A stretch of DNA of 33,864 nucleotides, from contig JBFMHB010000035.1 of the NCBI GenBank assembly GCA_040752915.1, positions 1-33,864 of the forward strand, read 5' to 3'. Within the stretch, counting starts at the first letter, position 1. Every line of letters starts with the position of its first letter. Positions 17,331-31,187 of this stretch are shown in pieces. The DNA comes from Acidobacteriota bacterium. Lineage in GTDB: Bacteria > Acidobacteriota > UBA4820 > DSQY01. A program made the position numbers and the translations under genes. The notes under the pieces were generated by a model, which was not told the origin of the DNA, made no database searches, and worked only from the letters and a program-made list of their open reading frames with translations.

Positions 17331-19175
17331 TCAGCAGCACCGTTGGGGAACGCCCTCCCGAACGGGCGCGGGACCGAAGGCCTTGGGGGGGATGGGGCGG
17401 CCCCTCAGAGTGGCGATGCAGCGGCGCAGGGCGTCGGCCAGGATCACGACCACGAGGACCATCATGATCGCCGTGAGGGAGGCCTGAAGGTAGCCCTGGA
17501 AGGCTTTCCCGGCCTTGCGGGCGAGGGGGAGGTAGATGTTCACGATGCCCAGGGCTCCCGCCGTGAGGGTGGTGACGGCCACGAAGACCATGGGGACCGC
17601 CGTCGCCCACGCATACCGGGACTTCCCCATGTTCACCAGAAACGTGGTGCCGATGGCGAGGGCCACGGTGGCGAGGAGCTGGTTGGCCGTCCCTAACATG
17701 GGCCAGATCGTCTGAACGGAGCCCGTGTAGATGAAGTAGCCCCACGCCGCGCAGATGACCGTCGTGGTGGCCACGTTGCCGGGGAGCCAGGAGGGGTTCC
17801 CCATGGGTTTGTAGTAATTGCCCAGGAACTCCTGGAGGAGGAAACGCGCCACGCGCGTGCCCGCGTCGATGGTCGTCAGGATGAACAGGGCCTCGAACAT
17901 GATGGCGAAGTGGTACCAGATGGCCATGAAGGGCCGCAGGCCGGGAATGGCCCCGAAGATCTCCGCCATGCCCACGGCCAGCGTGACCGCCCCTCCGGCC
18001 CGCCCCGTCACGTCCTCGCCGACCTCGGCGTTGAGCCTGCCCAGGTCCACCGTGTCGAGGCCAAGGGCCTGAAAGGCCTCCGGGGAGAGATTGATGGCGT
18101 AGTAGTCTCCGGGATGGAGCGAGCAGGCGGCGATGAGGGCCACCACGCCCACGAGGCTCTCCATGAGCATGGCCCCGTAGCCGATGAAGCGCGTGTCGGT
18201 TTCCTTGTCCACCATCTTGGGAGTGGTTCCCGAGGAGACGAGGGAATGGAAGCCCGAAATGGCTCCGCAGGCGATGGTCACGAACATGAAGGGGAAGAGC
18301 TTCCCGGGGATGATGGGGCCGCCGCCGGAGACGAAGCGGGTGAAGGCCTCGAAGTGCAGGTCGGGCCGGACGATGAGCACGCCGGCGATGAGGGCGAAGA
18401 TGGTGCCCACCTTCATGTAGGAGGAGAGGTAATCCCGCGGGGCCAGGAGGAGCCAGACGGGCAGAACCGAGGCGGCGAATCCGTAGAGGGCCAGGAGGAT
18501 GGTCAGCTGATGGTGGCTGAAGGTGAAGGCCCCCGCGAACGAGGAGGCCGCCACGTATTTTCCCAGGATGACGCAGAGGACCAAGGCCGCCACGCCCGCG
18601 AGGGAGGGCCCCTTGATGGCTCCGGGCCGGACCTTGAACATGTAGAGCCCCATCACGACGGCGATGGGGATCGTCATGGCGATGGTGAAGGTGCCCCAGG
18701 GGGAGGCGGCCAGGGCGTTGACGACCACCAGGCCGAGCCCCGCCAGGGCCACGACGACGATGAAGAGCACGGCGATGCCGGCGGTGAAGGCCGCCACGGG
18801 CCCGATCTCTGCGCGGGCGATTTCCGGCAGGGAACGGCCGTTGTGCCGGACCGAGGCCACGAGGATCGTGAAGTCGTGGACGCACCCCGCGAGGACGGAC
18901 CCGGCGAGGAGCCAGAGAAGCCCGGGCGCCCAGCCGAACTGGGCGGCGAGGACGGGGCCCACGAGGGGGCCCGCGCCCGCGATGGCCGCGAAATGGTGGC
19001 CGAAGAGGACCCATTTGTTCATGGGGACGTAGTTGTGGCCGTCCTCGAACCGGTGCGAAGGCATCTCCCGGCTCGGATCCAGGGCGAGGGCCTTGGCCGC
19101 GAGGAAGGCGCTGTAGTACCTGTACCCCAGCGCCAGGACGCACAGGGCGCCCACCATGATGGGAAACGAGTTCAT
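17331..19175 (-). CDS. cstA: CstA-family carbon starvation transporter
   Basis: A 614-residue, highly hydrophobic membrane protein with many transmembrane helices. Family hallmarks are visible: YYSAFLAAKALALD near the N-terminus, RFEDGHNYVPMNKWVLFGHHFAAIAGAGPLVGPVLAAQ, HDFTILVASVRHNGRSL, HSLVSSGTTPKMV, EALFILTTIDAGTRVARF and GTANQLLATVAL. CstA proteins import small nutrients on carbon starvation; pyruvate and peptides are reported for enterobacterial members. At 614 residues it is shorter than E. coli CstA (about 700), as many non-enterobacterial members are. ATG 19175 has GGGGAGGGGGG upstream. It is last in the run of leftward beta-oxidation genes, 79 nt after the racemase gene, and may have its own promoter (19205-19233). 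The substrate here is not determinable from sequence. Confidence 0.93.
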   Translation of the reverse strand: MNSFPIMVGALCVLALGYRYYSAFLAAKALALDPSREMPSHRFEDGHNYVPMNKWVLFGHHFAAIAGAGPLVGPVLAAQFGWAPGLLWLLAGSVLAGCVHDFTILVASVRHNGRSLPEIARAEIGPVAAFTAGIAVLFIVVVALAGLGLVVVNALAASPWGTFTIAMTIPIAVVMGLYMFKVRPGAIKGPSLAGVAALVLCVILGKYVAASSFAGAFTFSHHQLTILLALYGFAASVLPVWLLLAPRDYLSSYMKVGTIFALIAGVLIVRPDLHFEAFTRFVSGGGPIIPGKLFPFMFVTIACGAISGFHSLVSSGTTPKMVDKETDTRFIGYGAMLMESLVGVVALIAACSLHPGDYYAINLSPEAFQALGLDTVDLGRLNAEVGEDVTGRAGGAVTLAVGMAEIFGAIPGLRPFMAIWYHFAIMFEALFILTTIDAGTRVARFLLQEFLGNYYKPMGNPSWLPGNVATTTVICAAWGYFIYTGSVQTIWPMLGTANQLLATVALAIGTTFLVNMGKSRYAWATAVPMVFVAVTTLTAGALGIVNIYLPLARKAGKAFQGYLQASLTAIMMVLVVVILADALRRCIATLRGRPIPPKAFGPAPVREGVPQRCC

Positions 19176-19254: not shown

Positions 19255-20325
19255 TCAGCCGCCGGTCCACCTCGCCGTATGCTCGCCCAGCCGGGGAACG
19301 GGCCCCGCGCCGGGGCGTCCGTAAGACGCGAGGAGCGCAGGAAACGGGAAGCCTACCCCGGCGCCCCCCGCCAGGGCGAGGGACCGCACGGCCTCCAGGT
19401 CCCGCACCGGAGAAACGGGAAGCCCGAGAACGCGGAAGCGCTCGGTCCACCATGCGGCAGGCCTTCGCGCGATGGCCTGCGCGATGCGCGCGGCGGCGGC
19501 CGCGCCGACTTCCCCCCGCTCCAGGGCGGCGCCCGCGAGATCGGGAAGGCCCACCTCCTTGAGGAAGGCGTCCCAGAATTTGGGCTCCAGGCAGCAGACC
19601 GCGATCTCCCGCCCGTCGGAGCCGGCGTAGAGCCGGTACGCGGGACACCGGCCCGAAAGCATGTCCTCGCCGAGGCCTCCGCCTCCCGCCGCGAGGTCCG
19701 CCAAGGGCCAGGCCAGAAAGGGCGCCGAGGCGGCCGAGAGGGGCTGGTCCAGAAAGCGCCCCCTGCCCGTGCGGCTTCGTTCCAGGAGCGCCGCCAGGAG
19801 CGCCGTGAGCCCCAGGACCCCGCCCGCTATGTCCGAAACGGGCAGCCGGGGCATTCCCGGAGGGAAAAGGGAAAGGAGTCCCGAGGAGGCGGTGAAGTTC
19901 AGGTCGTGGCCCACGGCATCCCGGTCGGGGCCCGTGTGGCCGTAGCCCGACATGGAGAGGTAGATGAGGCCCGGGTTCACGGCCATCATCCTCTCCCAGC
20001 CCAGGCCCCACCCCTCCATCGTTCCCGGCCGGAAGCTCTCCACGAGGACGTCGGCGTGGCGGCACATCCTCCTCAGGGACGCGGCTCCCGCCTCCTCCCG
20101 CAGGTCCAGGCAGACGGACTCGGCCCCCCGGCACAGGGAGGCGAAGGCCGCCCCGACGCCGCTTTCCGGGTCCAGGGGCGGAGCGTGGCGGAGAGGGTCC
20201 CCCGCGGTGGGGTCCTCCACCTTGGCCACGGTGGCGCCCAAATCCAGGGCCAGGCGGTCGAGGACGGCCCCGGGAAGCATGCGCGAGGCGTCCACGATCA
20301 CGGTCCCCGTCAGGGGTCCTTCCAT
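19255..20325 (-). CDS. Alpha-methylacyl-CoA racemase (CaiB/BaiF family III)
   Basis: A 356-residue family III CoA-transferase fold protein. It resembles mycobacterial Mcr/AMACR more than true CoA transferases. FRPGTMEGWGLGWERM and GYGHTGPDRDAVGHDLNF match the racemase pattern, and DMLSGRCPAYRLY, then DGREIAVCCLEPKFW, align with the Mcr region before its catalytic Glu. Predicted catalytic residues are His140 (GHD), Asp165 (VSDIAGG) and Glu247 (LEPKF). The enzyme would epimerise (2R)- to (2S)-2-methylacyl-CoA so that methyl-branched chains can enter beta-oxidation. ATG 20325 follows GGGAGGAAACG. It is 43 nt downstream of the dehydrogenase-SCP2 gene in the same leftward cluster, which supports this role. 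A CoA transferase cannot be excluded without biochemistry. Confidence 0.82.
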   Translation of the reverse strand: MEGPLTGTVIVDASRMLPGAVLDRLALDLGATVAKVEDPTAGDPLRHAPPLDPESGVGAAFASLCRGAESVCLDLREEAGAASLRRMCRHADVLVESFRPGTMEGWGLGWERMMAVNPGLIYLSMSGYGHTGPDRDAVGHDLNFTASSGLLSLFPPGMPRLPVSDIAGGVLGLTALLAALLERSRTGRGRFLDQPLSAASAPFLAWPLADLAAGGGGLGEDMLSGRCPAYRLYAGSDGREIAVCCLEPKFWDAFLKEVGLPDLAGAALERGEVGAAAAARIAQAIARRPAAWWTERFRVLGLPVSPVRDLEAVRSLALAGGAGVGFPFPALLASYGRPGAGPVPRLGEHTARWTGG

Positions 20326-20368: not shown

Positions 20369-21970
20369 TCACCCTTCGAGGGGCCGGAAGGCCTTGATGA
20401 ACTGCATCATCTCCGTCAGGTTGGTGACGCGCACCCGGCCCATGAGGAAGGCCGTCTGCGGGTTCATCTTCCCGGTCTCGATGGCGAGGAAGGTCTCCTC
20501 CTTCATCTCCACAATGCAGTCCGGGGAACCCGCGAGGCCCTCCTCCACCGTGCACGCGCCGTTTTCGATGCGCACGGTCCAATCGGGATGCTCGGAGTTC
20601 TTCAGCCGGTAGTGGAAGGTGCTCTTCCAGCCTTCGGCCTTGTCGGCGCGCAGCCGCCCGGGCAGGGACCTGGCGATGCGCTCCACGGTCCAGGGTTCGG
20701 CGGCGGACGGCGTCTGGGCGGCGGGATTCTCGGAAGGTTCCATGGTGGGCTCTCTCCTTTGGGAAGACGGGGCGGTCGGGGCCGCCTTGCGCTCCTGGGC
20801 CCCTGCGCGTTCGAGGAGCGATCGGGCGACGATTTCGCGCATGATTTCGGAGGTTCCTCCCGCGAGGGTGGCGGCTCGGGCGTCCCGGAAAAAGCGCGCC
20901 AGCGGGTACTCTTCCATGAACCCGTAGCCCCCGTAGCACTGGAGGCAGGCGTCCGCCATTCGGACGGAGAGTTCGGTGGCCACCAGCTTGGCCATGGCCG
21001 CCTCGGTGACGGCGGGGCGGCCCTCTCCGACGAGGCCGGCGCAGTGGTAGGTGAGGCGGCGGGCCGCTTCGAGCTGGGCGGCGAGGTCCGCCAACCGGTG
21101 GGTGAGGGCCTGAAAGCGGGTCAGCGGGCGCCCGAAGGCGGTGCGGCTCTTCATGTAGGCGAGCGTCTCCTCCAGGGCGAGGTCCGCGCTCCCTACCGCG
21201 ATGGCGGCGGCGCACAGGCGCTCCAGGGCGAAGGCCCCGACGATGAGCTCGAAGCCCCGGCCTTCCTCTCCCACGAGGTTTTCGGCCGGCACCCGCGCGT
21301 CCTGGAAGGCCAGCTCCGCCGTGTCGGAGGCGTGCCAGCCCATCTTCTTCAATCGGCGCGAGACGGAGACCCCAGGCGTGTCGGCATCCACCACGAGAAG
21401 GCTCAGGCCCTCGGCTCCCTCTCCCCCGGTGCGGACGGCCATTGTGTAGAAATCGCCCGAGACTCCGTTCGTGATGAAGGTCTTGGCGCCGTTCACCACG
21501 TAGGCGTCCCCCTCCCGGACCGCCCGGGTCCGGAGGGAAGCCACGTCGGAGCCCGCGTCGGGCTCGGTGATGGCCAGAGCGCCCACCTTGGCCCCCCGGA
21601 TGGAGGGCTCCCAGTAGCGCCTCTTGAGGGCCTGGCTCCCCGCCGCGGCGATGTGGGCGGTGGCCATGAACTGCTGGACGGACACGGAGGCGCAGAATCC
21701 CCCCATCCGCGAGCGCGGCAGTTCCTCCAGAAAGGCCACGGCCATGAGGACATCCGCGCCCGCCCCGCCGTATTCCTCGGGAGCCGTGATGCCCAGGAAG
21801 CCGAGGTCTCCCATCCGGAGATAGATCTCCCGGGGGATGCGGCCCGCCGCCTCCCATTCCTCGGCGTGGGGGGCCACCTCCTTCACCAGGAAGGACCGCA
21901 CGGCCTTCCGGAAGGCCTCGTGTTCGGAGGTCCAACCGAAGCCGTTCATGGGATCGCCTCCGATAGACAT
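20369..21970 (-). CDS. Acyl-CoA dehydrogenase fused to a C-terminal SCP2 sterol-carrier domain
   Basis: A 533-residue fusion. Residues 8-390 form an acyl-CoA dehydrogenase: ITEPDAGSDVASLRT and TFITNGVSGD are FAD/substrate signatures, then RTAFGRPLTRFQ, QCYGGYGFMEEYPLARFFRDAR and AGGTSEIMREI. The usual MCAD-type catalytic Glu position (YEGT) is Gly371, but Glu250 (FALERL) sits where isovaleryl- and long-chain-type enzymes keep their base, so activity is still likely. After a Pro/Ala/Ser linker (390-425), residues 426-533 form an SCP2-like lipid-binding domain (VRIENGACTVEEG, DCIVEMKEETFLAIETGKMNPQTAFLMGRV). ATG 21970 starts 1 nt after the ligase stop and has GGAGGG upstream; ATG 21949, also with GGAGG, is equally possible. 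An internal start may give free SCP2. Confidence 0.9.
   Translation of the reverse strand: MSIGGDPMNGFGWTSEHEAFRKAVRSFLVKEVAPHAEEWEAAGRIPREIYLRMGDLGFLGITAPEEYGGAGADVLMAVAFLEELPRSRMGGFCASVSVQQFMATAHIAAAGSQALKRRYWEPSIRGAKVGALAITEPDAGSDVASLRTRAVREGDAYVVNGAKTFITNGVSGDFYTMAVRTGGEGAEGLSLLVVDADTPGVSVSRRLKKMGWHASDTAELAFQDARVPAENLVGEEGRGFELIVGAFALERLCAAAIAVGSADLALEETLAYMKSRTAFGRPLTRFQALTHRLADLAAQLEAARRLTYHCAGLVGEGRPAVTEAAMAKLVATELSVRMADACLQCYGGYGFMEEYPLARFFRDARAATLAGGTSEIMREIVARSLLERAGAQERKAAPTAPSSQRREPTMEPSENPAAQTPSAAEPWTVERIARSLPGRLRADKAEGWKSTFHYRLKNSEHPDWTVRIENGACTVEEGLAGSPDCIVEMKEETFLAIETGKMNPQTAFLMGRVRVTNLTEMMQFIKAFRPLEG
20741..20760 (-). promoter_or_regulatory. Possible internal ribosome-binding site and start for free SCP2
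   Basis: Inside the fusion gene, AAAGGAG (20760-20754) lies 10 nt before an in-frame ATG (20743-20741, residue Met410). Starting there would give a 124-residue SCP2 protein covering the whole domain. The position at the linker makes a second product plausible, but it is not proven. Confidence 0.4.
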
Positions 21971-21971
21971 T

Positions 21972-23765
21972 CTAGAGCCCTCCGACCCGGCCCACGTGCC
22001 CGCCGTACATTTCCTCCAGTTCCTCCCTGTAGCGCGCCTCGATGACGCGCCGCTTGAGCTTGAAGGTGAGGGTCATGGTGCCGCTCTCCGCCGAGAAGTC
22101 CTCCTCCAGGATGCGGTAGACCTTGATCTGCTCGACCCGCGAGAGGGACGCGTTCACCGCATCCACCTGGGCCCGCACGTGGGAGAGCAGTTCGGGGGCA
22201 TCCAGGGGGGCCGAGGAGAGCCCGGGGCGAACCCCGTCCAGGGCGGGCCGGTCCAGCGTCAGGAGGGCCACCACATAGGGACGGCGGTCGCAGTGGACCA
22301 GTGCGTTGGAGATCCCGGGCCGCGCCTTGAGGAGGTTCTCGAGCTTCGTGGGAGCGATGTTCTCCCCGGAGGCCGTGATGATCAGCTCCTTCTTGCGGTC
22401 CGTGATTTTCAGGAAGCCGTCGGCGTCCATCTCCCCCACGTCGCCCGTCCGGTAGAAGCCGTCGGGAGTGAAGACCGCCGCCGTGGCCGCCGGGTCCTTG
22501 AAGTACCCGGCGAAGACGTTGGGGCCCCGGACGAGGATTTCACCGTCTGCCTCGAGACGGATCTCCACGCCCGGCAAGGGCCGCCCCACCGTCCCGAAGC
22601 GGAAGGCCTCGGGCGTGTTGCACGTCGCGGGCGCGGAGGTCTCCGTGGCGCCGTACCCCTCGCAGACCAGGATCCCCACGGCGTGGAAGAACCTGGCCAG
22701 GTCCGCCGCCAGGGGGGCGCCTCCCGACACGAAGTACTTCAAGCGGCCGCCCAGCCTGTTTTGGATCTTGGAAAACACCAGAGCGTTCGCCAGGGCGCAC
22801 TTCAGCCCCAGGGACGGAGGAACGGGCCGCCCCGATTCCAGGAGAAGGCTCCGTTTCCGGCCCGCCTCCAGCGCCCACCGCGCCATCCGGCGCTTCCACC
22901 CGGGCTCCCTGGCCATCTGCGCCTGGATCCGGTCGTGGACCTTTTCGAAGAAACGCGGGACGGCGATGGCGTACTCGGGGCGGACGGCCGCGAAATCCTC
23001 CACGAGGAACTCGGGCCCACGGGAGTAGGCGATGGTCCCGCCCAGGTAGAGGGGCGTGAAGTGGCCGGCCACCCGCTCCAGCGAATGGGCCAGAGGAAGG
23101 AAACTGAGGTTCAGTCCCAGGTGGTTCTCCGGCCCCACGGCGGCGAGCACCGCCTCCACCACGCCCACGGCGTTCCCGTGGGTCATGACGGCGCCCTTGG
23201 GGTCCCCCGTCGTCCCGCTCGTGTAGACCAGCGTGAGGGGGGTGGAGGAAGGCGCCCGGGCGCTTTGCTCGACCCTCTCCCTCCCCACGGCGGGATCGCC
23301 CGTGGCCTCGAAAGCCGAAAGCGGCTCGGTGAAACCGTCGCCCTCCGGGGCCGGATCGAACGCGACGGCGCGCTCCAGAAGGGGGAGGCTCCCCCGCGCC
23401 GCGAGGACCTTTCCCAACTCCGTTTCGCCTTCCACGAAGACGACGCGGGAGTCCGAGTGGCGCAAGACGTAGGCCGCCTCCTCGCTCCTCAGGTCGGCGT
23501 AGACGGGCGCCACGACCCCGCCGGCGAACTGGATCGCCAGGTCGCAGAGCGCCCATTCGGGGCGGTTCCTGGAAAAGATGGCGGCCCGGTCGCCGGGACG
23601 CAGTCCGGCCCGGACCAGCGCGGCGGAAATGGACCGGACCCGCTCCTCCACCTCCGCGTAGGTGAGGTCCCTCCACGCTCCTCCCCGGAAGTACCGCATG
23701 CAAGGCTTCCCGGGCCTTTCCCGGAAGCGGTCGAGCATCACCTGCACGAAGTTCTCGTATCCCAT
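21972..23765 (-). CDS. Long-chain acyl-CoA synthetase (AMP-forming)
   Basis: A 597-residue ANL-superfamily ligase that activates fatty acids to acyl-CoA with ATP, releasing AMP and pyrophosphate. It shows the P-loop-like TSGTTGDPKG (182-191), YFVSGGAPLAADLARFFHAVG, EGYGATETSA, RTGDVGEMDADGFLKITDRKKE with the hinge Asp/Arg, and ITASGENIAPTKLENLL, the long-chain FadD/FACS pattern. The C-terminal domain is present and ends normally. ATG 23765 is chosen because GGGGAG lies 5 nt upstream; the frame extends to 23807, but without a site. It follows the FadJ gene by 42 nt and is 1 nt before the dehydrogenase gene, so all are probably on one message. Chain-length preference cannot be read from the sequence. 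Confidence 0.93.
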   Translation of the reverse strand: MGYENFVQVMLDRFRERPGKPCMRYFRGGAWRDLTYAEVEERVRSISAALVRAGLRPGDRAAIFSRNRPEWALCDLAIQFAGGVVAPVYADLRSEEAAYVLRHSDSRVVFVEGETELGKVLAARGSLPLLERAVAFDPAPEGDGFTEPLSAFEATGDPAVGRERVEQSARAPSSTPLTLVYTSGTTGDPKGAVMTHGNAVGVVEAVLAAVGPENHLGLNLSFLPLAHSLERVAGHFTPLYLGGTIAYSRGPEFLVEDFAAVRPEYAIAVPRFFEKVHDRIQAQMAREPGWKRRMARWALEAGRKRSLLLESGRPVPPSLGLKCALANALVFSKIQNRLGGRLKYFVSGGAPLAADLARFFHAVGILVCEGYGATETSAPATCNTPEAFRFGTVGRPLPGVEIRLEADGEILVRGPNVFAGYFKDPAATAAVFTPDGFYRTGDVGEMDADGFLKITDRKKELIITASGENIAPTKLENLLKARPGISNALVHCDRRPYVVALLTLDRPALDGVRPGLSSAPLDAPELLSHVRAQVDAVNASLSRVEQIKVYRILEEDFSAESGTMTLTFKLKRRVIEARYREELEEMYGGHVGRVGGL

Positions 23766-23807: not shown

Positions 23808-25928
23808 CTATCCTGGAGGGTAGAACTTGGTCCCCTTCCGCGCCGCCTCCTCCAAAAGGGGGGCGGGACGGAACCGAGGCCCGAGGCGCTCCGCGTACCC
23901 CTCCATGCGCCGCACGGCCTCGCCGGCGCCCAGGGTATCGAGGTAGCGGAAAGGCCCTCCCCGGAAGGGCGGGAAGCCCAGCCCGAGGATTCCGCCCACG
24001 TCTCCGTCCCGGGGGCACGCGAGCACGCCCTCCTGGAGGCACCACACGGCCTCGTTCACCATGAGAAAGGCCAGCCGCTCCGCCATCTCCAGGGCGGGGA
24101 ACTCCCGCCGGGGCGCGCCGCCGAGGAGAGCGTACACGGCCTCGTTTACGGGCTTGGCGCCCCGCCTCCGGCGGCCGTAGAGGTAGAAGCCCTTGCCGTT
24201 CTTCCGCCCCTGGAACCCGGCGGCGAAGAGCTTCGGCAGGGCCTCGCTGGAGGAGAGGCCCCGGTCCTTGAAGGTGTCGCCGAAGTCCTTGGCCACGTGG
24301 GCTCCCACGTCGATCCCCACCTCGTCGAGGAGCGCCACGGGGCCCACGGGGTAGCCGAAGTCCTTCAAGGCCCGATCCACCGCCTCCACCCGCGCGCCCT
24401 CCTCGAGCAGGACCATGGCCTCGTTCAGGAAGGGGGAGAGGATCCGAGTCGTGTAAAAGCCCGGGCCGTCCTTCACGACGATGCAGGTCTTGCCCTGGGA
24501 GACGCCGAAGGCGCGGGCCGTCGCGAGGGCTTCGCGGGAGGTCTTCTCCGCCCGGACGATCTCGAGCAGGGGCATCTTGGGCACGGGCGAGAAGTAGTGC
24601 ATCCCCAGCACGCGCTCCGGCCGGCGGGCCCCTTCCGCGATGGCGCGAATGGGCAGGGCCGACGTGTTGGAGGCGAAAACGCAGGACTCGGAGACGACGG
24701 CTTCCGTTTCCGCCAGGACCTTCCTCTTCAGGGCGAGGTCTTCGAAGACCGCCTCCACCACGAGGTCCGCGTGGCGGATGGCCTCGTAGTCCAGGCTCGG
24801 CGTGAGCCTCGCCCAGAGCCGGTCGCGCTCGAAGCGAGTGACGGCCCCCGACTTGACCTGCTTGGACAACCCCTCCCAGACGATCTTTCCGCACCGGGAG
24901 AGGACCTCGTCCGAGACGTCCTTCACCACGACGGCGGACCGCTTGAGGGACACGGAGGCCACGCCCGCCCCCATGAAGCCGCCTCCCAGGACGGCGAGCC
25001 GCCGCACGGGACGCGGCGCCGTGTCGTCGAGGGGCTTCTTCAGCTCCGTCATGTGAAGGAAGAGGGTCAGGAGGCTCCGCGCGGCCTCCCCGGCGAGGAG
25101 TTCACCGAAGAGGGCCTCCTCCTTCCGGAAGCCCGCCTCCGGTCCCCTCTTCAGCCCTTCTTCCACGCAGTCCAGGATGGCGAAGGGAGCGGGGTACAGT
25201 CCCCGGGTCTTGGCGCGCACCGAATCGCGGGCCTTCTTCAGGACCAAGGCCCTTCCGGGCGGAGTGGAGAGGAGGCGCTCGACCAGGGAGCGCTTCCTCC
25301 TTCCGGGACGCAGGCTCCCCTCGGCCAGCCGGCGGGCGGCCAGGGCCGCCGTCTCCACCAGGCCGCCGGGGGTGGTCAGCGCGCTCACGAGACCCATCCG
25401 GAGCGCCTTGCGGCTCCGGACCCTCTGGCCCGTGAGCATCATGGGCAGGGCCGCGGGCAGGCCCACCAGGGGGGGCAGGCGCTGGGTTCCCCCCGCGGCG
25501 GGCAGGAGCCCGAGGGTCACTTCGGGAAGGGCCAGGACCGTGGCCGGATCGTCCGAGGCGAGCCGGTAGGTGCAGCACAGCACGAGTTCCACGCCGCCCC
25601 CGAGGACCTGGCCGTGGATGGCCGCCACGAAGGGCTTGGGGCTCTTGGCCACGAGGTCCATGAGGACGTGGCCCTCGGCCGACAGCGCGGCCCCTTCCTC
25701 GGGCGTCCGGCAGGCGAGGAAGTCCTTGAGGTCGGCGCCCGCCAGGAAGTCCTTCTTTCCGCTGGCGAGGACGGCCGCCTTCACGTGCGGGTCGGCCAGG
25801 ACGTCCTCGATGGCCGAGCGAAAATGGCCGAAGAGGCTTCGGGACAGGATGTTCTGGGGACCGGACGGATTGTCGAAGGTCAGGATCGCCACTCCGTCGA
25901 GGCGCTTTTCGAGTCGAACCGGATTCAT
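23808..25928 (-). CDS. fadJ: FadJ/FadB-type multifunctional enoyl-CoA hydratase / 3-hydroxyacyl-CoA dehydrogenase
   Basis: A 706-residue two-enzyme protein of beta-oxidation. The crotonase half (1-200) has the oxyanion/catalytic HGQVLGGGVELVL (Glu114) and PEVTLGLLPAAGGTQRLP (Glu136). The dehydrogenase half has an NAD-binding Rossmann loop, LGGGFMGAGVA (314-324), and catalytic His444 in GMHYFSPVPKMPLLEIV, followed by VKDGPGFYTTRIL and the C-terminal duplicated helical domain (EVGIDVGAHVAKD, GRKNGKGFYLY). It hydrates trans-2-enoyl-CoA and oxidises the 3-hydroxyacyl-CoA with NAD. The start at 25928 overlaps the thiolase stop by 4 nt (ATGA), showing tight translational coupling. A frame that runs on upstream to 27269 is only the shadow of the thiolase gene. 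The symbol is by family resemblance; FadB is the alternative. Confidence 0.93.
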   Translation of the reverse strand: MNPVRLEKRLDGVAILTFDNPSGPQNILSRSLFGHFRSAIEDVLADPHVKAAVLASGKKDFLAGADLKDFLACRTPEEGAALSAEGHVLMDLVAKSPKPFVAAIHGQVLGGGVELVLCCTYRLASDDPATVLALPEVTLGLLPAAGGTQRLPPLVGLPAALPMMLTGQRVRSRKALRMGLVSALTTPGGLVETAALAARRLAEGSLRPGRRKRSLVERLLSTPPGRALVLKKARDSVRAKTRGLYPAPFAILDCVEEGLKRGPEAGFRKEEALFGELLAGEAARSLLTLFLHMTELKKPLDDTAPRPVRRLAVLGGGFMGAGVASVSLKRSAVVVKDVSDEVLSRCGKIVWEGLSKQVKSGAVTRFERDRLWARLTPSLDYEAIRHADLVVEAVFEDLALKRKVLAETEAVVSESCVFASNTSALPIRAIAEGARRPERVLGMHYFSPVPKMPLLEIVRAEKTSREALATARAFGVSQGKTCIVVKDGPGFYTTRILSPFLNEAMVLLEEGARVEAVDRALKDFGYPVGPVALLDEVGIDVGAHVAKDFGDTFKDRGLSSSEALPKLFAAGFQGRKNGKGFYLYGRRRRGAKPVNEAVYALLGGAPRREFPALEMAERLAFLMVNEAVWCLQEGVLACPRDGDVGGILGLGFPPFRGGPFRYLDTLGAGEAVRRMEGYAERLGPRFRPAPLLEEAARKGTKFYPPG

Positions 25929-27229
25929 GGCTCCACCCTCTCGAAGACCAGGGCGTTCCCGATGGCTCCCGCCGCGCAGGCGGCCACGAGCCCGTACCGG
26001 GCCCCCTCCTTCTGCATTCGCTGGACGCAGGTCGTGACCAGGCGCCCTCCCGTGGCTCCGAAGGGATGGCCGATGGAGAGGGAGCCGCCCCACGCGTTGA
26101 GGCGTTCGGGATCCACCCGGCCCACGGCCCGGTCGCGCCCGAGGCGCTCCCGGGCGAAGGCATCGCTCTCGAGGAGCTTCAGGTTGGCCACCATCTGGGC
26201 GGCGAAGGCCTCGTGAATCTCCACGACCCCCACCTGGTCCAGGGTGAGTCCCGCTCCGTCCAGGGCCTGGGGAATGGCGAAGGCCGGTCCGAGAAGGAGC
26301 TCGTCCAGGGGGTCCATGGCCGTGAAGCCGTAGGACACGAGCGCCGCCAAGGGCCGGAGCCGGAGTTCCCTCGCCTTCTCCTCGGACATGAGCAGGACGG
26401 CCGAGGCGCCGTCGGTCAGGAAGGAGGAGTTGGCGGCCGTGAGGCTTCCGAATGAGCGGTCGAAGGCGGGCCGCAGGCTCCCCATCTTCTCGGGGGTGCT
26501 GTCGCCCCGGATCCCGTTGTCCTCCCGGACGATCCGGAATCGGCCCGGAACCAGGACGGGCACGATCTGCCGGGCCAGGTGGCCCTCCTGTCTGGCCCTG
26601 GCGGCCTTCAGGTGGGAGTTCAGGGCATAGGCGTCCTGGTCCTCGCGGGTGACGCCCAGTCGCTTGGCGAGGCGTTCCCCGTTCTGCCCCATGGACAGCC
26701 CCGTGGAGAAGTCCGCGATGGCGGGCACGGCGGGCTTGAGGTCCTTCCACTTCGTGCCGGCGAAGTGGCGAAGGAGCCCAAGGGGCCCCTTGACCCGCTG
26801 GGCGCCCATGAGGCGCTTTCTCATGGGACGGCTCAGGCGGATGGGCGCATCGGACAGCGTCTCCGTCCCTCCCGCGATCGCCACGTCCGCCATGCCCGAG
26901 GCGACGAAGTGGGCCGCGTTCACGAAGGCCAGATTGGCCGAAACGCACGCCACCGTCAGGGTGTACGCGGGACAGGAGGAGGGAAGGCCGGCGGCCAGAC
27001 CCACCTCCCGGGCCACGTTGCTCGTGTCCGGGTCGGCGATGACGGTCCCCATCACGAGGGCGTCCACCTCTTTGGGATCGATGGGAGTTCGGTGAAGGAG
27101 GCCCGCCACCGCCGCCCGGCCGAGATCGTAGGCCGAGAGGTCGAGGAAGTCGGTCCCCGACCGGAGAAAGGGGGTCCGGCAGCCGTCCACGACGACCACC
27201 CTCCGCCCCGGAAGCCTTCCGCTCTTCAT
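25925..27229 (-). CDS. fadI: Acetyl-CoA acyltransferase (3-ketoacyl-CoA thiolase, FadI-like)
   Basis: A 434-residue thiolase that cleaves 3-ketoacyl-CoA with CoA to acetyl-CoA and a shortened acyl-CoA. The nucleophile is Cys95 in LTVACVSANLAF. The other active-site motifs are EIHEAFAAQ, GHPFGATGGR (His388) and ACAAGAIGNAL (Cys418). The length and the KGPLGLLRHF loop region fit the FadI-like long form. ATG 27229 has AGGAGGGGAGG directly upstream. It is the first gene of the leftward beta-oxidation cluster and overlaps fadJ by 4 nt, the fadI-fadJ order seen in proteobacteria. A near-consensus promoter and a TGGTNNNACCA operator precede it, so acyl-CoA-responsive repression is likely. Thiolase identity is sure; the symbol is by resemblance. 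Confidence 0.93.
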   Translation of the reverse strand: MKSGRLPGRRVVVVDGCRTPFLRSGTDFLDLSAYDLGRAAVAGLLHRTPIDPKEVDALVMGTVIADPDTSNVAREVGLAAGLPSSCPAYTLTVACVSANLAFVNAAHFVASGMADVAIAGGTETLSDAPIRLSRPMRKRLMGAQRVKGPLGLLRHFAGTKWKDLKPAVPAIADFSTGLSMGQNGERLAKRLGVTREDQDAYALNSHLKAARARQEGHLARQIVPVLVPGRFRIVREDNGIRGDSTPEKMGSLRPAFDRSFGSLTAANSSFLTDGASAVLLMSEEKARELRLRPLAALVSYGFTAMDPLDELLLGPAFAIPQALDGAGLTLDQVGVVEIHEAFAAQMVANLKLLESDAFARERLGRDRAVGRVDPERLNAWGGSLSIGHPFGATGGRLVTTCVQRMQKEGARYGLVAACAAGAIGNALVFERVEP

Positions 27230-27274: not shown

Positions 27275-27285
27275 TGGTCAGACCA
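27275..27285. promoter_or_regulatory. GntR/FadR-type operator at the thiolase promoter
   Basis: TGGTCAGACCA is a perfect 5+1+5 palindrome matching the TGGTNNNACCA consensus of FadR/PdhR-type GntR regulators and close to the E. coli FadR core TGGTCNGACCA. It begins 9 nt downstream of the thiolase -10, beside the predicted transcription start, where bound repressor would block transcription. Confidence 0.82.
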
Positions 27286-27293
27286 CAATAAAA

Positions 27294-27322
27294 ACTATAG
27301 GAAGGCGAATCCCCCCTGTCAA
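27294..27322 (-). promoter_or_regulatory. Strong sigma70-type promoter of the beta-oxidation cluster
   Basis: On the minus strand, TTGACA (27322-27317, exact), a 17-nt spacer and TATAGT (27299-27294, 5 of 6). Predicted start is near 27287, giving a leader of about 58 nt to the thiolase ATG. Confidence 0.82.
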
Positions 27323-27331
27323 GCCAACCGG

Positions 27332-27360
27332 TTGCATTTCATGAACCAATGACCTAGGAT
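27332..27360 (+). promoter_or_regulatory. Candidate promoter of the GntR-family regulator
   Basis: TTGCAT (27332-27337), a 17-nt spacer and TAGGAT (27355-27360). Hexamers are weak, but spacing is ideal and transcription from about 27367 would place operator 2 just downstream and agree with the start codon at 27398. Confidence 0.4.
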
Positions 27361-27373
27361 GCTTTCAGAACTG

Positions 27374-27384
27374 TGGTCTTACCA
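27374..27384. promoter_or_regulatory. Second GntR/FadR-type operator, in the regulator leader
   Basis: TGGTCTTACCA also fits TGGTNNNACCA, differing from the first site at two of the three central bases. It lies 99 bp from the first site and 13 nt before the regulator's start codon, consistent with autorepression. Confidence 0.72.
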
Positions 27385-27397
27385 GATGGAGCCGCCC

Positions 27398-28126: not shown

Positions 28127-28256
28127 AGTCTGATCCGTTGCGATGTCCGGAGCGTCGGGGACCCGCACCGGTCTTGTCGAGCCAGGCTATCGTTTGAGGC
28201 TGGACTTTAGAATAGAGCGCCCGGGGGCGGGGTTAAGAGAAATCATGGAGAGGCTC

Positions 28257-31187
28257 ATGGCCAAGATCGGAATTCGGACGGGTGGCGGTGTGGAAAGGGC
28301 TTTTTCCTGGGCTTCTGGCGCGCTTCGGCTGGGGGCCTCGGTCATGCTCGCGGCGGCCTGTGGGGTCGGTCTCGCGCCCCTGGCGCAGTCGATCCACAGC
28401 GCGGGCGGCAACGATCGGGGACAGATCGGCGACGGGGCCACTCCCGTGGCGGCGACCCCCATCCTCCTTCCCGGTCTCGGCCCCGCAAAGGGGGTCAGCG
28501 CCGGAGACGGATTCACGGTGGTCCTGAAGGAGGACGAGACGGTCTGGGCCTTCGGGCGCAACCTGGACGGCCAGTTGGGAAACGGATCCTTCTTCTCCAC
28601 CAGCGCTCCCGTTCAGGTTTCGGGGGTCTCGGGCATCAAGCAGATCTCCGCAGGCCGGAACCACGTCCTCGCCCTCGGCGCCGACGGCTCCGTTTGGGCC
28701 TGGGGCTACAACGGCAGCGGCCTGCTCGGAGACGGGACAACGGTCTCGCGCTCCACGCCCATTCACACGCTGTCGTTGAACACCATCACCAAGGTGGCCG
28801 CCGGACTGGCCCACAGTGTGGCCCTGCACCAGAACGGCACGGTCTATACCTGGGGCGCCAATTACTTCGGCGAACTGGGCGACGGAACCACCACGGGCCG
28901 CCTCCTCCCGGCTCCCGTCCCGGGTCTGACGGACGTCGTGGACATCGCCGCGGGGGGCTTTTTCACCCTGGCGCGGCGGGTGGACGGAACGGTCTGGGCC
29001 TGGGGCGCCAACGCCTCGGGCCAGCTGGGCGACGGAACGACCACGAGCCGGACGAGCCCCGTGCAGGTGGCGGGCCTGTCGGGCGTGGCCGCCCTCGCGG
29101 CGGGCTACGACCACGCCCTGGCCGCGCGCATGGACGGCACGGCCGTTCAGTGGGGGTACGGAGCGGGCTCCACTCCCGTTTCCGTGAGCGGGCTCTCCTC
29201 GGTGCAGTCCGTCGCCGCCGGCAACAAGTACAGCCTCTTCCTCGACGCGGATGGTTCGATCCGGGGCCAGGGCGTGAACTTCTACGGCCAGCTCGGCAAC
29301 GGGACTTGCTCCTCTGCCGCCTCCCTGGGCCCCGTTCTGGCCATCGCCGAGGCGGGCCTCGTGGCGGCGGGGTGGGATTCCGCCGTGGCCGTGGACGGCG
29401 TGGGCGAGGTGTGGACCTGGGGCTCCGATTCGGACGGCCAGCTCGGCGCGGGCCGCCCCACCTTCCGAACGTCCTTCGCCCAGATCTCGGGCGCGGGATC
29501 CATCGTTCAGGCGGCGGGCGGAGCCTCCCACTCGGTGGCCCTCCTTTCCGACGGCACGGTCTCCTCCTGGGGCGACAACTACTACGGGGAACTGGGTATC
29601 GGCGATTACGCCCCCAGCGGGACACCCCTCCCGATCCCCGGCCTCTCTGGGATTGCGCAGGTCGCCGCGGGGGCCTACCACACGCTGGCCCTGAAGGCGG
29701 ACGGCACCGTATGGGTCTGGGGCTACAATTACGACAGCAACCGCTTCCCGACGCAGAAGACCGGGCTCACCCAGGTCGTCGGCGTGGCCGGGGGGGGCGT
29801 GTTCAGCCTCGCCGTCCGGTCCGACGGGACGGTGTGGGGTTGGGGTTCCAACTCGCAGGGCCAGTTGGGCGACGGGACCACGGCCTCCACCTCCGTCCCC
29901 GTCCAGGCCGCCGGGCTCACCCAGGCCACCGCCGTGGCGGCGGGCACCTACCACTCCCTGGCCCTCCGGCAGGACGGGTCCGTCTGGTCCTGGGGCTACA
30001 ATCCCCGCGGGCAGTTGGGCGACGGGACCACGACCAGCCGGCCGACCCCCGGGCCCGTTCTCGGCCTTCCCCTTCCCGCCACCGCCGTGGCCGCGGGGGG
30101 CCATTTCAGCGCCGCCCTTCTCACCGACGGAAGCCTGTGGCTATGGGGAGACAACGAGGATGGGCAGATCGGGGACGGGACCACCGCCAACCGGGCGCTT
30201 CCCGTGGAGGCGGCGGGCCTCCCCCACCCCGTGGCGTCGGTGGCCCTCGGCTACGCCCACGCCCTGGCCGTCCTCGACGACGGAAGCCTCTGGACGTGGG
30301 GCTGGAACGCCTCGGGACAGCTGGGCCAGGGAAATCGCACGGACGCCCATGCTCCGGTGCGGGTGGCCGGCTTCGGGCCCGCCTCCCTGGCCGCCGCGGG
30401 AGCCAACCACAGCCTCCTCCTCAAGGGAGGGTGCTCGGTCTCCTGCTCGGCCCTCGTCCCGGCCTCCGTCCTGTCGGGTTCGCCCGTGAACTTCTCGGCC
30501 TCCGCCTCCGTGAGCCAGTGCGCCGGCGCGCCCGATTTCGCCTGGGACTTCGGAGACGGCTCTCCCCCGGCTTCCGGGGCCGACGTAACCCATTCCTACG
30601 CGCTGGAGGGGACCTACACCTGGACGCTGACGGCCTCGGCCGACGGGGTGACCTGCCAGCGGACCGGGACCCTCACGGTGGCTTCCTGCACCCTGACCTG
30701 CGCCGCCTCGGCGCCAACCCTGCTCAACACAGGGGAGCCGGGCGCCTTCTCGGCCACCGCCCAGGTCTCCGCCGGGTGCGCCGCACCCTCCTTCGCCTGG
30801 GACTTCGGGGACGGCTCGGGCGCCGCCACCTCCGCTTCGGCCCACGCTTACTCGGGGCCCGGAGCGCGCACGTGGACCCTCACCGTCACCTCCGGAGCGC
30901 TGACCTGCACCCGAACGGGGATCGTCACGGTGGTGAATCCGCCCTCCGTCACCGCCCTGGCCAAGAAGACCAACCCCTTCCGCGTCGTCGTCACCGGGAG
31001 CAACCTGCAAAACGGGATGCAGGTCTTCATCGGAGGGACGCCCCACGCCACCGTGACTTACAAGAGCGCCGCCAAGGTGGTCCTCAAGGGCTCGACGCTC
31101 AAGAGCCTCGTCCCCAAGGGCATCCCCACCCTCTTCCGCTTCGTCAACCCCGACGGCGGCTGGGCCGAGTACACCTGGACGAGATAG
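28257..31187 (+). CDS. Large exported RCC1-repeat protein with two PKD domains and IPT-like C-terminus (copy 2)
   Basis: A 976-residue paralog of the 14189-17077 protein. A long N-terminus ends in a hydrophobic segment (LGASVMLAAACGVGLAPLAQS), probably an export signal. Fourteen RCC1 repeats follow, with the sixth (VQWGYGAGST) and tenth (WVWGYNYDSN) degenerate, exactly the positions degenerate in the other copy. Then come two Cys-containing PKD domains (FAWDFGDGS..., twice) and an IPT/TIG-like tail (VTALAKKTNPFRVVVTGSNLQNG...KVVLKG). Likely surface-exposed or secreted; function unknown. ATG 28257 is chosen because GGAGAGG lies just before it; ATG 28245 and a longer frame to 28143 are alternatives with weaker sites. 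A good terminator follows at 31217-31257. It is transcribed away from the regulator gene, which ends 130 nt upstream on the same strand. Confidence 0.88.
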   Translation: MAKIGIRTGGGVERAFSWASGALRLGASVMLAAACGVGLAPLAQSIHSAGGNDRGQIGDGATPVAATPILLPGLGPAKGVSAGDGFTVVLKEDETVWAFGRNLDGQLGNGSFFSTSAPVQVSGVSGIKQISAGRNHVLALGADGSVWAWGYNGSGLLGDGTTVSRSTPIHTLSLNTITKVAAGLAHSVALHQNGTVYTWGANYFGELGDGTTTGRLLPAPVPGLTDVVDIAAGGFFTLARRVDGTVWAWGANASGQLGDGTTTSRTSPVQVAGLSGVAALAAGYDHALAARMDGTAVQWGYGAGSTPVSVSGLSSVQSVAAGNKYSLFLDADGSIRGQGVNFYGQLGNGTCSSAASLGPVLAIAEAGLVAAGWDSAVAVDGVGEVWTWGSDSDGQLGAGRPTFRTSFAQISGAGSIVQAAGGASHSVALLSDGTVSSWGDNYYGELGIGDYAPSGTPLPIPGLSGIAQVAAGAYHTLALKADGTVWVWGYNYDSNRFPTQKTGLTQVVGVAGGGVFSLAVRSDGTVWGWGSNSQGQLGDGTTASTSVPVQAAGLTQATAVAAGTYHSLALRQDGSVWSWGYNPRGQLGDGTTTSRPTPGPVLGLPLPATAVAAGGHFSAALLTDGSLWLWGDNEDGQIGDGTTANRALPVEAAGLPHPVASVALGYAHALAVLDDGSLWTWGWNASGQLGQGNRTDAHAPVRVAGFGPASLAAAGANHSLLLKGGCSVSCSALVPASVLSGSPVNFSASASVSQCAGAPDFAWDFGDGSPPASGADVTHSYALEGTYTWTLTASADGVTCQRTGTLTVASCTLTCAASAPTLLNTGEPGAFSATAQVSAGCAAPSFAWDFGDGSGAATSASAHAYSGPGARTWTLTVTSGALTCTRTGIVTVVNPPSVTALAKKTNPFRVVVTGSNLQNGMQVFIGGTPHATVTYKSAAKVVLKGSTLKSLVPKGIPTLFRFVNPDGGWAEYTWTR
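28394..30430 (+). repeat. Coding RCC1 repeat array, 14 units
   Basis: Units of about 45-55 codons encode the second RCC1 propeller array; the segment coding GQLGDGTT recurs as near-copies of CAGTTGGGCGACGGGACCACG. Diverged repeats, as in copy 1. Confidence 0.8.

Follow-up and report, generated by a model that had tools for sequence, protein, structure and literature searches.

The best explanation for the gap upstream of a five-gene beta-oxidation cluster, which taken as a whole we hold with about even confidence, is a GntR double-site divergon whose likeliest inducer is an acyl-CoA. The locus lies in a 33,864-nucleotide stretch of DNA from an Acidobacteriota bacterium, referred to below as the window. 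In the proposed model, a dimeric FCD regulator would bind two near-identical operators, each situated just downstream of the −10 element of one of two divergent promoters. Bound regulator would block RNA polymerase at both promoters, resulting in repression of the beta-oxidation operon and of the regulator's own gene, and a metabolite of the pathway, most likely a long- or medium-chain acyl-CoA, would release it. Judging from the DNA and protein sequences, it is very probable that the regulator binds both sites and represses both promoters. The sites, the leftward promoter, the genes and the type of domain can be read directly from the sequence, while binding, repression, autoregulation and the ligand are predictions. 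The first-pass annotation had proposed a FadR-like autoregulated switch at this position. A circuit in which a single GntR regulator acts through a pair of operators on both the cluster and its own gene is predicted to be repressive and is well supported by the geometry of the gap, the near-identity of the sites and the presence of the same 11-mer beside the nearest homologues of the regulator, whereas the step from a FadR-like ligand domain to acyl-CoA is less well supported.

Table 1. Positions in the window of the genes, promoters and operator sites discussed in the text.
Feature	Position	Strand	Basis
Family III CoA-transferase, last probable operon gene	19255..20325	-	
Acyl-CoA dehydrogenase with C-terminal SCP2 domain	20369..21970	-	
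AMP-binding acyl-CoA synthetase, FadD-like role	21972..23765	-	
FadJ-like enoyl-CoA hydratase/3-hydroxyacyl-CoA dehydrogenase (multifunctional)	23808..25928	-	
FadI-like 3-ketoacyl-CoA thiolase	25925..27229	-	
Operator 1 15-mer TGTGGTCTGACCAGA	27287 to 27273	-	
Leftward promoter TTGACA-17-TATAGT, beta-oxidation operon	27294..27322	-	promoter scan
Putative weak rightward promoter TTGCAT-17-TAGGAT, regulator gene	27332..27360	+	inferred by eye
Operator 2 15-mer TGTGGTCTTACCAGA	27372-27386	+	
GntR-family regulator, HTH (PF00392) and FCD (PF07729), 242 aa	27398..28126	+	

Two palindromic sites, a leftward promoter and a putative rightward promoter in the divergent gap

Site 1 (TGGTCAGACCA, 27275-27285) and site 2 (TGGTCTTACCA, 27374-27384) are the only exact TGGTNNNACCA palindromes in the window, where 0.12 would be expected, and both fall inside the divergent gap. 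Only 1 of 100 shuffles of the window contained two such sites. When the 168-bp gap itself was shuffled 100,000 times with its dinucleotides preserved, at least one site appeared in 235 shuffles and two sites in a single one. Each read along its own transcript, the two 15-mers are identical at 14 of 15 positions (p ~ 0.003 for the agreement beyond the fixed core), and exact matches to GTGGTCNNACCA occur at three places genome-wide, two of which are in the gap. The centres of the two sites are 99 bp apart. Both palindromes, their spacing, the length of the gap and the near-consensus leftward promoter had been reported in the first-pass annotation, and our analysis reproduced each of them.

The leftward promoter was the only sigma-70-like site found in the surrounding 11.3 kb. 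Since the 15-mer of site 1 starts 7 nt past the −10 element of this promoter, site 1 should overlap the start of transcription. The earlier placement of site 1 over the thiolase start region thus holds for the predicted transcription start, but not for the translation start, because 46-56 bp separate the site from the thiolase ATG (27229) downstream of it. Part of the promoter spacer coincides with a terminator-like stem (27299-27317), which was read as a chance feature. The putative rightward promoter scored below the threshold of the promoter scan; relative to the start it predicts, site 2 would span roughly +7 to +17. The 15-mer of this site starts 12 nt past the putative −10, shortly before the ribosome-binding site of the regulator gene. 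Both sites have the same orientation and a similar position relative to their own promoters. This layout matches the definition of a double-site divergon with separate operators, in which the interval dividing a transcription factor gene from a structural operon carries two sites, one close to each start; in the FadR subfamily each site served its own operon in 71 of 100 double-site cases (PMC4494728). The same study gives a palindromic TKGT-N3-ACMA-type consensus for FCD-group GntR proteins, and an operator of this type is present in the regulator's own upstream region.

The gap length presumes that translation of the regulator begins at ATG 27398, a codon that follows a GGAG ribosome site and lines up with the starts of the regulator's homologues. 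A longer open reading frame from ATG 27359 was rejected, its start falling inside the putative −10 element. Downstream, only 16 bp separate the regulator gene from a gene for a 1014-residue protein with RCC1 repeats and PKD domains (28143-31187, + strand), and the two may be transcribed together. On the other side of the gap, the start of the FadJ-like gene overlaps the stop of the thiolase gene, and because no intergenic gap within the leftward cluster exceeds 43 bp, its five genes are likely to form a single transcript. A CstA-family carrier gene (17331-19175, - strand) follows the CoA-transferase gene after 79 bp on the same strand. The CstA family includes pyruvate and peptide carriers; if this gene belongs to the same transcript as the beta-oxidation cluster, as it may, that would be relevant to the question of the ligand.

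The whole 3.07-Mb genome contains 13 exact TGGTNNNACCA sites. No exact site is near any of the genome's seven other acyl-CoA dehydrogenase genes, indicating that the circuit is local at most. A wider regulon was considered and rejected: eight of the 11 sites outside the gap are within predicted genes and one is part of a TetR-type palindrome, while other FadR-like sites in the genome carry mismatches. The TetR-type palindrome, AGTTGGTTAGACCAACT (G000:C19:17494-17504; L083:1995), is just upstream of a TetR-family gene that is followed by an HlyD-family gene, and it is probably the operator of the adjoining TetR protein.

Classification and relatives of the regulator

Both Pfam domains of the regulator scored above their cut-offs (PF00392, 76.5 bits; PF07729, 57.4 bits), which places the protein in the FCD group of the GntR superfamily, that is, in the FadR subfamily in its broad sense. 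The ligand domain of the regulator is FCD, with no FadR_C domain (PF07840) detected by Pfam, and FadR is absent among the NCBIfam matches listed. The best NCBIfam model was PdhR (PRK09464) at 131 bits, against an equivalog cut-off of 330. Among the E. coli proteins tested, PdhR scored 97 bits, LldR 78 and FadR 14; identity to PdhR reached 47% in the HTH, and identity to FadR in the C-terminal region was 12%. In a phylogenetic tree, E. coli FadR and the FadR proteins from the same family formed a clade with 100/100 support. The regulator fell outside this clade, on a long branch with no resolved placement within the FCD group, and it does not qualify as a FadR orthologue. The genome encodes no other FCD protein.

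Genuine FadR proteins, recognized by their FadR_C domain, are present in five genomes of the same family (L049, L050, L051, L053 and L063), and both of those tested exceeded the NCBIfam PRK04984 cut-off. The gene is preceded by a promoter and then by a conserved autoregulatory operator, AACTGGTCAGACCTCTNACCAGT; written as ACTGGTCAGACCTCTNACCAGT, this operator is strongly conserved and directly follows the promoter. In the two neighbourhoods read (L153 and L154), FadR heads an operon with genes for a FAD-linked oxidase and a glycerol-3-phosphate-oxidase-type protein, and one of the two also contains a glycerol-kinase-like gene. This glycerol-3-phosphate-type setting, which is not a thiolase operon, differs from that of E. 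coli FadR. A search of the source genome, the completeness of which is estimated at 98.3%, recovered no FadR_C protein. A FadR operator has the form aaCTGGTCnGACC(T/A)Gtt and covers the point where transcription of fad genes begins. Site 1 matches the FadR core CTGGTCnGACCA and lies across the predicted start, and site 2 has one core mismatch; the core is also used by LldR-type proteins.

Within the phylum, the nearest homologues share 31-35% identity with the regulator and come from 25 genomes of family f23 (L004-L028). In all 25, TGGTNNNACCA precedes the matched start of the homologue's gene by 80 to 177 bp, and in 21 of them the site is exactly TGGTCAGACCA. Wherever the neighbours were read, the divergent gene encodes an L-lactate permease. 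These gaps support the view that this class of protein would recognize TGGTNNNACCA-type sites. As the same 11-mer is found beside LldR-like regulators in 25 genomes, the operator does not reveal the ligand. In one LldR-type genome (L041:2206), a second TGGTCTGACCA is located upstream of the gene for a cytochrome c3 and FAD-binding (fumarate-reductase-like) protein, near the lactate genes, which suggests a wider LldR regulon.

Closer to the source genome, a search at 1e-12 through the 12 remaining genomes of the class recovered no regulator orthologue, and a scan of genome contigs gave only two distant partial matches. The orthologous thiolases of sister genomes (L034-L036) are 70-73% identical to that of the window, and their promoters keep the TTGACA box, with a −10 element of the TACAA type. 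These promoters have no operator, and the regulator is absent as well; 26 further thiolase loci in the phylum also contained neither. Conservation of both sites in close relatives, which had been set as a check on the proposed circuit, was thus not observed. The joint absence of operator and regulator agrees with their being a pair, but it does not provide a phylogenetic footprint. A thiolase from outside the class (L092; G016:C316:266-1567) is 75% identical to that of the window and thus more similar to it than the same-family orthologues are; horizontal transfer of the beta-oxidation cluster is possible.

The ligand pocket and alternative explanations

FCD regulators usually hold a metal through Asp and His residues, whereas E. 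coli FadR has Phe149, Tyr193 and Tyr215 instead (PMC7674646). At the four metal-ligand positions, the regulator has Y153, F157, L205 and H227, compared with D, H, H and H in the LldR-type homologues, V, Q, R and H in E. coli PdhR, and D, F, Y and Y in E. coli FadR. Thus, the Asp/His ligands typical of LldR and DgoR are replaced by hydrophobic residues at three of four positions. This pattern makes a metal-held carboxylate an unlikely ligand and a hydrophobic one plausible; it permits an acyl-CoA without proving it. PdhR senses pyruvate and has lost the same three metal ligands, so that loss of the site does not in itself imply an acyl-CoA, and we give only moderate weight to this step. Because the site was lost in a hydrophobic direction and AlkR is a known FCD regulator that responds to acyl-CoAs, a long- or medium-chain acyl-CoA remains the most likely inducer, at roughly an even chance. 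A structure predicted from the single sequence of the regulator, with no alignment, had a pLDDT of 56, too poor for inspection of the pocket.

The strongest competitor, tentative though it is, retains the same circuit but has as inducer pyruvate, lactate or a similar small carboxylate or central metabolite. A PdhR/LldR-type regulator would then couple beta-oxidation to carbon status and not to the supply of fatty acids. It draws on the higher scores of E. coli PdhR and LldR over FadR, on the lactate permease and identical 11-mer of the nearest homologues, on the direct regulation of fadIJ and fadE by E. coli PdhR (PMC7660256), and on the CstA-family gene downstream of the cluster. Set against this, the regulator no longer has metal ligands of the lactate/carboxylate type, the polar Q and R of PdhR are F and L in it, and the neighbouring genes encode acyl-CoA enzymes rather than enzymes of lactate or pyruvate metabolism.

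Other explanations concern the sites themselves. Control could be one-sided, acting on either the operon or the regulator gene, with the second site an auxiliary element for looping rather than a separate operator. Although the rightward promoter is weak and was called by eye, and the 99-bp spacing amounts to about nine and a half helical turns, such roughly half-integral phasing does not favour looping and the sites are placed alike relative to their promoters; we regard one-sided control as improbable. It is far less probable still that a true FadR encoded elsewhere binds both sites. CTGGTCAGACCA does fit the E. coli FadR core CTGGTCnGACC(T/A), and a genuine FadR with operator AACTGGTCAGACCTCTTACCAGTT exists in same-family genomes, but site 2 deviates from the core and the nearly complete source genome yielded no FadR_C protein. 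Chance matches are hardly more credible an origin for the two sites: apart from their lack of conservation in sister genomes nothing favours it, and the gap shuffles, the near-identity of the 15-mers, the overlap with promoters and the adjoining regulator of matching DNA-binding class all argue against it.

Comparison with known systems and a possible regulator replacement

The predicted circuit shares features with several known systems. As with E. coli FadR and the same-family FadR proteins, it has a GntR HTH, a TGGTCnGACC-type operator over the predicted transcription start and a ligand domain that lacks a metal site, and the predicted control of fadI/fadJ-type genes also resembles that by E. 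coli FadR. It is unlike FadR in its FCD domain, in its divergent C-terminal region and in its separate position in the tree. The predicted autoregulation would be a further difference from the textbook FadR, since the E. coli protein does not control its own gene (PMC9329746). The regulator resembles PdhR, which matched it best of all the E. coli proteins tested, in the GGTnnnACC box, in the loss of the same three metal positions and in the action of PdhR on genes like its own predicted targets; the PdhR box is ATTGGTnnnACCAAT (PMC7660256). In contrast, PdhR is a pyruvate sensor encoded beside aceE, with polar residues at the former metal positions. The LldR-type loci have the same divergent layout with TGGTCAGACCA in the gap, although with one site rather than two, an intact D-H-H-H metal site, and lactate instead of beta-oxidation genes. 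AlkR of Pseudomonas aeruginosa (FCD/VanR, PF07729) binds the fadD, fadBA and fadE promoters, and its release is brought about by C16- and C18-CoA (PMC12042122). It is likewise a PF07729 regulator with a palindromic operator; however, it belongs to the VanR subclass, recognizes ATTGTCAGACAAT and has alkB2 as its main target, and the sequence match between the two proteins is confined to the HTH region.

The double-site divergon is already a common design, and the modest surprise is the apparent replacement of a regulator at a beta-oxidation operon. We tentatively suggest that a metal-free PdhR/LldR-type FCD regulator took over acyl-CoA sensing and the beta-oxidation operon in this lineage, whereas in sister genera a genuine FadR still serves a different operon. 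In this scenario, a new operator would have arisen at an old promoter, and the former metal positions of the FCD pocket would have become hydrophobic. The locus also carries a warning. Since lactate-type regulators in the phylum use the identical 11-mer, TGGTNNNACCA together with a 'FadR-family' label does not identify an acyl-CoA ligand. With a genuine FadR found in relatives and not here, and with sister operons that keep the TTGACA box without the operator, the locus offers a compact and testable case of regulator replacement.
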